Shown: positions 11,766-31,290 of the stretch, one piece after another
Layout: each line of letters opens with the position of its first letter
Position numbering within the stretch: the stretch's first letter is position 1
Source: Deltaproteobacteria bacterium
Lineage (GTDB): Bacteria; Desulfobacterota; Desulfarculia; Adiutricales; Adiutricaceae
Length of the DNA stretch: 36,214 nucleotides
Direction of reading: 5' to 3'
Assembly: GCA_031278635.1 (NCBI GenBank)
Contig: JAITKA010000094.1
Coordinates: forward strand, 1 to 36,214
The notes under the pieces: generated by a model
What the model saw: only the letters and a program-made list of their open reading frames with translations
Database searches by the model: none
Told to the model about the DNA's origin: nothing
Translations under genes and position numbers: made by a program

Positions 11766-11851
11766 CCCCCCGGACGATAACCGAGGGGTCGCCCGTCCCC
11801 TTGATTATTGGCGAAAAAGGCTGTATTTTTTGTGGGGTAGCCAAGGCGATC

Positions 11852-11973
11852 CGTCCCGGCGTTTTATGCCGGGGAAAAGGGGCTTTCGTAACCTAAGGCA
11901 AGACCCTTCGTCCGTCCCGGCGTTTTAAGGCGGGGAAAAGGGGTTTTCGCAACCTAAGGTAAGACGCTTCGTC
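11852..11973 (+). repeat. Two tandem copies of a 61-bp unit
   Basis: Copy one (11852-11912) and copy two (11913-11973) share about 54 of 61 bases, both starting CGTCCCGGCGTTTTA and ending CTTCGTC. In copy one the start folds as CCCGGC-GTTTTAT-GCCGGG (11855-11873). It lies in the 259-base gap between the ribonuclease and DUF4416 genes. Only two copies and no spacers, so it is not a CRISPR. Confidence 0.75.
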
Positions 11974-12024
11974 CCTTATATTTTATTTGCCGCTCTTTTT
12001 AACGACGTCAGGTACAGGTGCCCA

Positions 12025-15249: not shown

Positions 15250-16431
15250 TTAGTCGCGGCCGGCCCCCAATACCCTGACGAGGAAGATGAACAGGTTGAT
15301 GAAGTCCAGATACAGCATCAGGGCGCCGTGGATGACCATCGTGCCCTCGTGTTCTTGGTTGGCGAAGCCGCCAGCGTGCATGACCCTGAGCTTTTGGTGG
15401 TCATAGGCGGTCAGGGCCGCGAAGAGAAGGACCCCGATCCAGGAGATGACGTAATGGAACATCGGGCTTCTGGCAATCATGTTGATGACCATGGCCACTA
15501 TTAGCCCGATCAAGGCCATGAAAAGGAAGCCGCCCCATGCCTGGAGGGAACGCTTGGTCAGCAAACCGTAAGCGGCCATGCCCCCGTAGACCAAGGCCGT
15601 CGAGAAAAAGGCCTTGAAAATGATATTTTGGGGGTAAACCACGAGCAGGATCGAGATCGTCACCCCGACCGAGGCCGCGTAAGCCAGAAACAAACCCCTT
15701 AGCGTGTTGACCGAGACCTTGTTCGACAAAAAGTTGATGAGCAGGACCAAGCCGATCTGCATGGCGACGACCATGATAATCAACGCGGTGCTATGCATCA
15801 GCATGTACATAAAGGAGCTGTTAAAAATCATGTAGGCGGAGACGGCGGTAACGATCAAGCCGCCAAACATCCACAGATAGACGTTCTGGAAAAACGTGAC
15901 CTCGGACGTCTGCTCGACGCTCACCCCCTGGGGCACGGCCATGGCCGCGCCGCCCTGCCACTGGTTGCCGGAAAACTGGTTCTGCCCGTAGGGCGGCTGC
16001 TGGCCCTGTTGGCCGTAGTAGGGCGGTTGTTGCTGGCCGTACGGGGGCTGCTGGCCGTAGTAAGGCTGCTGGCCCTGTTGGCCGTAGTAGGGTGGCTGCT
16101 GCTGGCCGTACGGGGGCTGCTGACCGTATGGCGGCTGCTGGGGCGGCTGCTGCCCGTAGTAGGGTGGCTGCTGCTGACCGTACGGGGGCTGCTGGCCGTA
16201 GGGCGGCTGCTGCCCGTAGTAAGGCTGCTGGGGCGGCTGCTGGCCGTAGGGCGGCTGCGGCGGCTGGCCCTGCTGCCCGTAGTAGGGCTGCTGGGGCGGC
16301 TGCTGGCCGTAGGGCTGCTGCGGCTGCTGCGGGCCCTTCTGCAAGTTTTGGGGCTGCTGGGGCTGCCCTGGTCGCTGGGGATTCGGGCCTTTGCCGGGTC
16401 CCCCCTGTGGCGGTCCATTATAGTTAGCCAT
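15250..16431 (-). CDS. Bax inhibitor-1 (YccA/TMBIM) membrane protein with PYGQQ-repeat N-terminus
   Basis: Residues 175-390 form a Bax inhibitor-1 domain with seven hydrophobic helices and the family ending GALMLYLDFINLFIFLVRVLG. The two acidic residues that act as the pH-sensing pair in the family are kept (Asp344 in TAYDHQ, Asp376 in LYLDFI). Members are membrane proteins linked to calcium leak (BsYetJ) or FtsH regulation (YccA). Residues 1-160 are a low-complexity tail of about a dozen PPYGQQ / PPYYGQQ repeats, very rich in Pro, Gln, Tyr and Gly, predicted disordered and cytoplasmic. The layout recalls animal GRINA/TMBIM3, also proline-rich at its N-terminus. ATG 16431 has GGAGGAGAC 6 nt upstream. 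The 5' leader is about 115 nt from a proposed promoter. Confidence 0.9.
   Translation of the reverse strand: MANYNGPPQGGPGKGPNPQRPGQPQQPQNLQKGPQQPQQPYGQQPPQQPYYGQQGQPPQPPYGQQPPQQPYYGQQPPYGQQPPYGQQQPPYYGQQPPQQPPYGQQPPYGQQQPPYYGQQGQQPYYGQQPPYGQQQPPYYGQQGQQPPYGQNQFSGNQWQGGAAMAVPQGVSVEQTSEVTFFQNVYLWMFGGLIVTAVSAYMIFNSSFMYMLMHSTALIIMVVAMQIGLVLLINFLSNKVSVNTLRGLFLAYAASVGVTISILLVVYPQNIIFKAFFSTALVYGGMAAYGLLTKRSLQAWGGFLFMALIGLIVAMVINMIARSPMFHYVISWIGVLLFAALTAYDHQKLRVMHAGGFANQEHEGTMVIHGALMLYLDFINLFIFLVRVLGAGRD
15975..16325 (-). repeat. Coding minisatellite (PPYGQQ repeats)
   Basis: Tandem units of roughly 18 to 27 bases encode PPYGQQ, PPYYGQQ and QQPP variants. Copies are close to identical at the DNA level, for example CGTAGTAGGGTGGCTGCTGC twice, so unit number may vary between strains by slippage or recombination. 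Because all units are multiples of three, changes would stay in frame. Confidence 0.8.
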
Positions 16432-16554
16432 GATGTCTCCTCCGTAGGATATGAAGGCCTACCGATCGCGAAGATGTCCCGGCCAAAAAAGCGGGGTGGG
16501 TGGCTTGGCCTGAGGCGAAAGGGTTGTCCGAATTGGCAATCTTTGCCACTAATA

Positions 16555-16583
16555 ATGATAAGACCAAATCGGGGAAAAATCAA
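16555..16583 (-). promoter_or_regulatory. Sigma-70-type promoter for the Bax inhibitor-1 gene
   Basis: Read on the minus strand: -35 TTGATT (16583-16578), 17-base spacer, -10 TATCAT (16560-16555). It would start transcription near 16548 and give a leader of about 115 nt before the ATG. Confidence 0.45.
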
Positions 16584-16752
16584 GACCTTTGGCTGGACAA
16601 GGGGATGAGATAAAAAAAGTCGCAACTTATGGCGGAGATCTGAAAAAATTTCGGAAACTTCGGGCAATCATGATAACCATGCCTTGTTTTGGTAGTAATA
16701 TTACATAGAAGGAGAAAATTTCATCGACTAAAAAAATCTAAACCCAAATATC

Positions 16753-16781
16753 TTGACAACGGGCGAAGCTCAGTGTAACAT
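16753..16781 (+). promoter_or_regulatory. Sigma-70-type promoter for the candidate small RNA
   Basis: A perfect -35 TTGACA (16753-16758), a 17-base spacer, and -10 TAACAT (16776-16781), 4 of 6 to consensus. The predicted start is about 16788, and no protein gene follows before the terminator at 16822-16858. Confidence 0.5.
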
Positions 16782-16787
16782 AAGTCA

Positions 16788-16858
16788 AGAACAAAATATT
16801 GCACCTCTTTCAAGCGCAACCACTTGGCTAGTCCCTCCGGATTAGCCAAGTTTTTTTT
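16788..16858 (+). ncRNA. Candidate ~71-nt small RNA with anti-SD-like motifs
   Basis: A promoter with perfect -35 sits upstream and a textbook intrinsic terminator ends it: stem ACTTGGCTA / TAGCCAAGT (16822-16830 with 16843-16851), 12-base loop, then eight Ts. The transcript has no ATG and no ribosome site, so it is unlikely to be coding. Two pyrimidine-rich stretches could pair with Shine-Dalgarno sequences: UCCCUCC in the terminator loop, and CACCUCUUUC near 16802-16811, close to the conserved 3' end of 16S rRNA (CACCUCCUUUC). That pattern fits a trans-acting translation repressor, which is inference. No known RNA family was recognised. Confidence 0.45.
16822..16858 (+). terminator. Intrinsic terminator of the candidate small RNA
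   Basis: A 9-bp perfect stem (ACTTGGCTA with TAGCCAAGT), loop GTCCCTCCGGAT, directly followed by eight Ts. Confidence 0.8.
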
Positions 16859-17876: not shown

Positions 17877-17891
17877 GGCGGGGCCGCCTCA
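17874..17891. terminator. Palindrome spanning two convergent stop codons
   Basis: TGAGGCGG-GG-CCGCCTCA is a perfect 8-bp inverted repeat with a 2-base centre. Its left end is the TGA of the DUF2269-like gene and its right end is the TGA of the methyltransferase on the other strand. There is no T run, so it may act as a weak two-way barrier rather than a true intrinsic terminator. Confidence 0.4.
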
Positions 17892-19598
17892 GGGAAGGGG
17901 GCGGGAGCCGGGTTGGGCGGAATGGGCCCTCAGCTCGTCCCGCTCGCCGGGGCTGAGGCCGTAAAGCTCGAACGCCGCCTGGTCGCAGGCCGCGAGGTCC
18001 CTCGCCATGGCGGCCCCGGCCAGCTCGCGGCGAAGGCGCCCGGGCACGTCGGCCCAGAGGGGAAGGCGTATCCGCCGCAGGTATTGCGCCTGGAAGCGAA
18101 GGAAGCCGCCCCGCATGGCGACGGCGTAGGCCGAGACGAACATGCCGGCCACGGCGGAGGAGAGGACGGCCTGCAGGGCCCGCAGGTCCCACGCCCGGGA
18201 GGTGACGTGGTAGATATTATGGTTCGGGTAGAAGCCGCCGGCCTCGAAGACCGCGTGGGCCTTGGCTTTTATGTCCGGCATTAGGATTTTGGGCGATTTA
18301 TACAGGCCCAGGTCGATCCGGTCGATGGTGCGGTACCAACTGGCCGGGTTTTTTTTGGCGCAGTGCCGTTTGGCGAGGGTTTCCCTGCGCTCCCCGAGGT
18401 AGCGCCCCAGCCGGGGGTGGTCCCGGAGATCGACCAGCCGCCCGGTCTCGTCGAAGGGGTTGATGACCCCCAGGCCGCCCCACCTGACCTCCCCGGAGGC
18501 TATGTCCCCGGTGGTGAGGAGCCGCAGTTTACGGCTAGGCTCGACGTCCAGGTCCTCGAAGTCGCCGATGAAGGCCTTGTCCGCCCCGGTGGCCACACCG
18601 ACCCCGACCTGGCAACCGGCCTCCCCCAGCGTGGGAAAGCCTCGCTCCAGGCGCCGGATCAGGGCCGTCGGCCCGGGGGGCTCCAGGAGCCACGGCTCGG
18701 GGCCGTTCCCGACCACGGGGAGTTCCCTCGCGGGGTCGCCCTCGCCCGGCGGCTCCCCGGCGTTCAGGGTTTTGGCCAGGGCCGACAGCTCCGGGGCGCT
18801 TATTTGGGGCCCACGGGCGACCCGGGTCGGGCCCGGCCGGGCCCGGTCGATCACGACGATGGCCGGGTAGGCGGTGACGGTCGAGCGGAAGGCCGGCCGG
18901 TCTTCCATGTCCACGAAAACCCGCAGGTGGAAATTTTTCGCGACGAGGCTCCTGAGCGGGGCCCCGTAACGGTTCTTTACCCAGCGGTTGGGGCAAATGA
19001 AGCCCAGGCTGCCGCCCCTTGACAACAGCCCCAGCGAGCGCTCGATGAAGGGCACGTAAATGTCGGCCCGGTCGTGGATGGTCCCGTAGCGCCGCCGGTA
19101 CTCGGCCATCAGCCCGTTCGGGATAAGCTCATGCCTCACGTATGGCGGGTTCCCCACCGCGAAATCGAATTCCCCTTCCAAGGGGGTCAGCAAAAAATCG
19201 CCCGGCGCGAGCCAGGCGTCGGCCAAGCCCTCGGCGTCCCCCGCCCCCAGCCCCCGGTCCCGCAAAAACCCCACTATCGCGAGGCGCGTGGCCCCGAAGG
19301 TGGGGCCGTGTGACTCGACGGCCCTGATCGCGCCCCGCAAGGGGCCGATGCCGGCCCCATTCGCCCGCCACGAGGCCAGAAGGCGCCCGATGGCGGGCAA
19401 AAGTATGTCGCCCCCGCCGAAGGAGGGCTCCAGCAGGCGCTTTTCGTAAAGGGGCCTGTCGGCCGAGTAGCCCACCAGGTCCAGGATGAAATCGGCGACC
19501 TCGCGGCGGGTGAAGATAGCCCCCCTGCCCCCGTCCCCGCGGGGCGGCCCAGGGGCCCCGGCGGCATCGGGCGGGCTCGGCTTTTGTGACCGGGGCAT
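17889..19598 (-). CDS. Eco57I/TaqI-like N6-adenine DNA methyltransferase
   Basis: A 569-residue gamma-type DNA methyltransferase. Motif X-like GAIFTRREVADFILDLVGY is at 26-44, the S-adenosylmethionine motif LLEPSFGGGDIL at 55-66, and the catalytic NPPY at 150-153, which marks adenine-N6 methylation. The rest (about 250-569) looks like a TaqI-type target recognition domain. Type IIG enzymes usually carry a nuclease PD-ExK domain N-terminal to the methylase and exceed 900 residues; that domain is absent, and no restriction gene is visible nearby. It could be a solitary methyltransferase or half of a type II pair. It starts 15 nt after the ABC permease stop with GGGGGAT upstream, so it is probably on the same mRNA. 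Target sequence unknown. Confidence 0.85.
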   Translation of the reverse strand: MPRSQKPSPPDAAGAPGPPRGDGGRGAIFTRREVADFILDLVGYSADRPLYEKRLLEPSFGGGDILLPAIGRLLASWRANGAGIGPLRGAIRAVESHGPTFGATRLAIVGFLRDRGLGAGDAEGLADAWLAPGDFLLTPLEGEFDFAVGNPPYVRHELIPNGLMAEYRRRYGTIHDRADIYVPFIERSLGLLSRGGSLGFICPNRWVKNRYGAPLRSLVAKNFHLRVFVDMEDRPAFRSTVTAYPAIVVIDRARPGPTRVARGPQISAPELSALAKTLNAGEPPGEGDPARELPVVGNGPEPWLLEPPGPTALIRRLERGFPTLGEAGCQVGVGVATGADKAFIGDFEDLDVEPSRKLRLLTTGDIASGEVRWGGLGVINPFDETGRLVDLRDHPRLGRYLGERRETLAKRHCAKKNPASWYRTIDRIDLGLYKSPKILMPDIKAKAHAVFEAGGFYPNHNIYHVTSRAWDLRALQAVLSSAVAGMFVSAYAVAMRGGFLRFQAQYLRRIRLPLWADVPGRLRRELAGAAMARDLAACDQAAFELYGLSPGERDELRAHSAQPGSRPLP

Positions 19599-30823: not shown

Positions 30824-30870
30824 GACCAATACCTTCGGGATTGCTATGGGGGAAAATCTTGGCCTTATCC

Positions 30871-31290
30871 GGGCGAAAGGCCTTCGATAATTAAAGTCAG
30901 GCGGGAAGAGTTGAAAGTAACGCTATAAATTTTTTAGCCAATCTATAGTGGTTATAAAAAATTATTTTACTGTTATTTAAGCTATAAATCATAAATTAGG
31001 AGCCAATTAATTTTTATTTACGCATATGATATTCAATAAATTTTTTAACGTAGCTTATTAAGGTAACTTTCCACACGGGAGGCGGGCGGAAGGCCTTCGG
31101 TAATTAAAGTCGGTCAGGAAGAGCTGAAAATAACACTATTAATTTTTTAGCCAATCTCTAGTGATTATAAAAAATTATTTTACTTTCACTTAATTTACAA
31201 ATCATAAATTCGAAGTCAATTAATTTTTATTTGCGCATATTAGACTTAATAAATTTTATAGCGTAGCTTGATACAATAAAATTTCCACCT
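30871..31290. repeat. Tandem duplication of a ~213-bp AT-rich unit
   Basis: Copy one starts GGGCGAAAGGCCTTCGATAA at 30871 and copy two GGGCGGAAGGCCTTCGGTAA at 31084. They stay alignable for about 205 bases to ACTTTCCAC and AATTTCCAC, with scattered changes and small indels. Each copy holds an inverted repeat, TTTTTTAGCCA-loop-TGGTTATAAAAAA in copy one (30925-30965) and a near match in copy two (31138-31178). Confidence 0.8.

Follow-up and report, generated by a model that had tools for sequence, protein, structure and literature searches.

The alpha-r14 or cuckoo RNAs of the alphaproteobacteria are built of three hairpins that each carry CCUCCUCCC at unpaired positions, and NfeR1 is described as an Hfq-independent RNA that silences mRNAs at the translation start (PMC10746234). 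RsaE is 93 nt in length and has two UCCCC motifs (PMC8334554). In Campylobacter jejuni, the 98 nt CJnc230 has two stem-loops that flank its seed and a CCUU motif (PMC11187230).

The locus described here lies in a window of 36,214 nt, the whole stretch of DNA that was analysed, from a genus that is probably one of termite-gut deltaproteobacteria, Candidatus Adiutricaceae. The named records of two relatives, G001 and G005, are deltaproteobacterial MAGs (Pcl387_bin95 and Cd354_bin42). The predicted small RNA (sRNA) of the window resembles the alpha-r14/cuckoo RNAs (NfeR1) in having an unpaired anti-Shine-Dalgarno-like motif, but it has one hairpin, that of the terminator, and one copy of CACCUCUUUC, and belongs to another phylum. 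The CCUCCUCCC string is absent from the transcript. The RsaE/RoxS RNAs of the Firmicutes are alike in having an unpaired motif rich in C that presumably occupies ribosome sites, but UCCCC is absent from the RNAs of both the window and G005, the UCCCU of the window is partly in the terminator stem, and there is no Rfam match to the family. CJnc230 likewise has a conserved single-stranded stretch with a putative anti-Shine-Dalgarno motif and a fixed neighbour gene (PMC11187230); its length, two stem-loops, CCUU motif and different phylum set it apart, by description rather than by sequence.

No Rfam family reached its gathering score and nothing relevant was found at E values up to 10. The best-scoring Rfam sRNA was CyaR (RF00112), which has a similar overall layout of a C-rich stretch followed by a terminator; with 15.8 bits and an E of 2.9, below the gathering score of 47, it is not a match. 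As regards the class of Hfq-dependent sRNAs, Hfq (PF17209) was not found in seven genomes of the genus, which are 68–96% complete, using a search that detects Hfq in E. coli, B. subtilis and other controls. The sRNA may work like the cuckoo/alpha-r14 RNAs or RsaE while being a member of neither. The initial annotation had likened it to both, and this applies at best to the working principle, the defining features of the two families being absent.

Promoter, transcript and terminator

The features of the locus are as follows.

15250-16431, minus strand: Bax1-I family membrane protein with a PQ-rich N-terminus, the divergent neighbour (Pfam PF01027, E 1e-48)
16542-16591, minus strand: conserved block with the Bax1-I promoter, outside the sRNA (-35 TTGATT at 16583-16578, -10 TATCAT at 16560-16555)
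16753-16758, plus strand: -35 box TTGACA, read from the sequence and the same in G005
16759-16775, plus strand: 17-nt spacer, equal in length in G005
16776-16781, plus strand: -10 box TAACAT, the same in G005 and inside the conserved TGTAACAT
16788-16858, plus strand: predicted sRNA of ~71 nt, its start placed by inference 6–8 nt past the -10 box
16799-16816, plus strand: conserved, mostly unpaired core TTGCACCTCTTTCAAGCG, the putative seed by its conservation in G005 and its accessibility
16822-16858, plus strand: intrinsic terminator with a 13-bp stem, a CUCC loop and eight T, the stem pairs compensated twice in G005
16832-16838, plus strand: TCCCTCC, the loop motif of the initial annotation, partly in the terminator stem of a loop that is not conserved

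The TTGACA box, 17-nt spacer, -10 box and eight-T terminator are all located where the initial annotation had placed them. The terminator T-run is at 16851-16858, with its first T paired within the stem. A scan of 20 kb found 11 promoter-like sites, the TTGACA/TAACAT promoter among them, where 5.7 are expected in shuffles, and 35 terminator-like sites, that of the sRNA among them, where 25 are expected. These matches are only modestly above the shuffles, each on its own therefore being weak proof, and it was conservation that had to decide. The gene before the terminator, Bax1-I, runs in the opposite direction, so there is no upstream plus strand gene in need of a terminator. Taken together with the conservation in G005, this is very probably a real small RNA gene.

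Computed folding of the 71-nt transcript gives -22.2 kcal/mol, with a z of -5.2 against shuffles, most of which is supplied by the terminator, the only stable hairpin present. The transcript is predicted to expose UUGCACCUCUUUC in a 5' region that is for the most part unpaired, and to end in this hairpin. The loop motif UCCCUCC put forward in the initial annotation does not hold in this fold, where its UCC is paired and the open loop is CUCC alone. In G005 the terminator loop is CUAGU, with 2/5 loop identity to the window.

Conservation and distribution among relatives

Searched by blastn, 60 related genomes yielded a single significant match beyond the window's own genome, with an E value of 8e-10, in the same-genus G005, where the element is kept as a unit at C98:2284-2397 on the minus strand. 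Both copies are divergent from the same Bax1-I gene. In the intergenic comparison of the window with G005, only the sRNA block and the Bax1-I promoter block stood out. Within the sRNA block the two genomes agree fully in the -35 and -10 boxes and in the U-tract, and their spacers are of equal length. The core, TTGCACCTCTTTC(A/T)AGCG, is identical in 17/18 bases, the spacer in 9/17 and the leader in 8/17. All 13 stem pairs are kept in both genomes through two compensatory changes and one change of U-A to U-G, a count that rests on two sequences and is by itself too small for significance; with only two sequences the conservation statistics are thin. It had been expected that close relatives would keep the promoter along with the loop, and that a covariance search would recover the stem with UCCCUCC at its tip. 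The promoter is indeed kept in one relative, G005, as is the stem, but the loop is replaced.

The two copies were used to build a covariance model, which by construction scores them at 129–140 bits. Applied to the relatives and to all 37 genomes of the family, the model found convincing copies only in the window and G005, and 5 of the 6 other genus genomes show no copy. A further match in G005 (L029, E 0.046) is without core or boxes and is within chance for 37 genomes. The weak matches in other genomes (L021-L031, E 0.05–0.9) were rejected, as none combines promoter, core and terminator. L026 in G021, which has ATTACACCTTTTTTACGCG and was judged by eye to be the best of them, has no terminator. 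A plasmid collection was searched without a match to the element, and three matches in viral contigs with TTGCACCTCTTTCNAGCG, having no comparable promoter or terminator, were taken as chance.

The complete syntenic intergenic region of G001 keeps the Bax1-I promoter block and has no homologue of the sRNA. The G001 Bax1-I protein is nevertheless nearer to that of the window (70% identity) than is the G005 protein (66%), and the RNA has therefore been lost or replaced in G001, or is unevenly spread. The sRNA family is probably new and narrowly distributed. If transcribed, it would be an sRNA family in a termite-symbiont lineage where no Hfq was found, and a further, fast-turning-over example of an anti-Shine-Dalgarno-like, C-rich seed among unrelated phyla.

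At the same intergenic place in G001 (L010:3545-3690) there is an unrelated promoter-like TTGAAA-17-TATATT, with a terminator-like hairpin ~90 nt on, in the expected strand. This may be another small RNA, or a leader of DUF2269.

The core and its mode of action

The anti-Shine-Dalgarno-like motif that had been reported in the 5' half is borne out as the most conserved transcribed part other than the U-tract, and is largely unpaired. By computed folding, most of the core is unpaired in the window RNA and part of it in the G005 RNA, the 5' structures of the two being unlike. Within the core, the 10-mer CACCTCTTTC at 16802-16811 is one deletion away from the 16S rRNA tail sequence CACCTCCTTTC. 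The core is one deletion short of the tail CACCUCCUUUC, and in G005 the likeness reaches CUA. The tail used for comparison is the canonical one, the sole near match to a 16S tail in the genome itself being coding sequence. Dinucleotide shuffling of the 71-nt transcript produces such a tail-like 10-mer in 0.24% of cases, or in 0.6% for any part of the tail, both values being uncorrected for motif choice. Only three tail-like 10-mers are found on both strands of the 36-kb window. The duplex of the core with GAAAGAGGUG is computed at about -16 kcal/mol for both RNAs.

The best explanation, and one that is probable on balance, is an Hfq-independent trans-acting sRNA whose core pairs with Shine-Dalgarno sequences and blocks ribosome binding. 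A sigma-70 promoter would start the ~71-nt RNA of an autonomous, single-copy gene, and the intrinsic terminator would end it. The exposed core would pair in trans with a few mRNAs, at Shine-Dalgarno regions resembling GAAAGAGGUG, and this pairing would keep the ribosome off them without Hfq. As the search of the seven genus genomes yielded no Hfq, the simplest picture is one of action without Hfq, as described for NfeR1. Features expected of this functional kind that are present by sequence and conservation are an own promoter, an intrinsic terminator, the absence of a coding signal and a conserved, accessible seed complementary to Shine-Dalgarno sequences, which in G005 is partly unpaired. 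The sRNA is probably an ordinary translation-blocking RNA, and 16799-16816 is a clear experimental seed.

The translation block claimed in the initial annotation is plausible, but neither an enrichment of complementary sites nor a target common to both genomes was found. Sites complementary to the core (GAAAGAGGTGCAAT, up to 2 mismatches) number 10 in G000, against 22 for the reversed pattern. Candidates in G000 with AAGAGGTG ahead of the ATG are a metal-binding-domain protein, a HemN-like radical SAM protein, a PhnH-like protein, an HflK-like protein and an integrase-like frame, their products having been named by eye from the translations without a family search. No AAGAGGTG site in the Shine-Dalgarno position is common to G000 and G005 orthologues, G005 being 68% complete. 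A block of translation through the core, with transcription, mRNA pairing and repression as its inferred steps, is slightly favoured. Bax1-I was also considered as a target, as the window loop could pair with its ribosome site CGGAGGAGAC, and was rejected because loop and ribosome site are both not conserved in G005.

The lack of enrichment and of a common target would also be expected if this is a real sRNA whose core pairs outside the ribosome site, in coding or 5' regions, or sponges another RNA, its 16S likeness being coincidental. The conserved stretch does extend beyond the tail-like 10-mer, by TTG- at one end and -AGCG at the other, and the 0.2–0.6% of shuffles with tail-like 10-mers is a value before correction for motif choice. 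However, the tail-like part lies in the middle of the stretch that does not vary, and it is common for sRNAs to bind ribosome sites through unpaired C-rich seeds (PMC8334554, PMC10746234). Such other action of the core is rather unlikely.

A 5' leader or attenuator, in which the hairpin stops transcription unless a signal permits read-through into a downstream gene, perhaps with a leader peptide, is unlikely. In the window a same-strand DUF2269 gene lies 460–490 nt downstream, and a TTG-started 10-codon frame spans the core (TTG CAC CTC TTT CAA GCG CAA CCA CTT GGC TAG). However, the next same-strand gene in G005 is ~1.3 kb away and is another membrane protein frame rather than DUF2269, a difference that argues against a leader tied to a particular gene. 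The frame, which is without a good ribosome site, would encode MHLFQAQPLG in the window and MHLFLAY in G005. The sole change in its first six codons is non-silent and the sequences diverge thereafter, which argues against a peptide. Nor is an alternative antiterminator hairpin predicted by computed folding.

It is improbable that the matches to promoter and terminator arose by chance, or that this is a conserved DNA element without a functional RNA. Such matches are modestly frequent above shuffles in the region and most relatives are missing the element, but the E 8e-10 match is in a syntenic place with a compensated stem and its spacing kept, and chance would not preserve exactly these parts. 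It is very unlikely that the RNA truly mimics the 3' end of 16S rRNA as a general initiation brake, acting on tail-binding initiation or maturation factors or on many mRNAs at once instead of a chosen few. A minus-strand gene using GAAAGAGGTG as its own Shine-Dalgarno sequence is hardly credible: although the core, read on the minus strand, makes a good Shine-Dalgarno sequence, the frames after GAAAGAGGTG are short, none in the window reaching 40 codons, and are not kept in G005, and the promoter boxes and T-run point the opposite way.

With the leader, peptide and minus-strand readings disfavoured, the autonomous sRNA is left. Its earlier description as an orphan sRNA stands, in that promoter, terminator and synteny are kept while a coding signal and a shared downstream gene are absent.

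Neighbouring features

The Bax1-I promoter block (TTGATT-17-TATCAT) is common to the window, G005 and G001, whereas the sRNA is common to the window and G005 only. Overlapping tandem repeats at 15982-16361 encode the PQ/YGQQ-rich N-terminal tail of the Bax1-I protein, and these tails differ in size in G001 and G005.

Between DUF2269 and the peptide-transport permeases there is an Eco57I-type methylase with a TaqI-like specificity domain (17889-19598), at the place of which G001 has another gene. Two 61-bp tandem repeats (11850-11974) are present directly after an RNase II/R-like gene. Two 213-bp direct repeats that are 85% alike (30870-31269) adjoin a 1168-aa Sel1-repeat protein.
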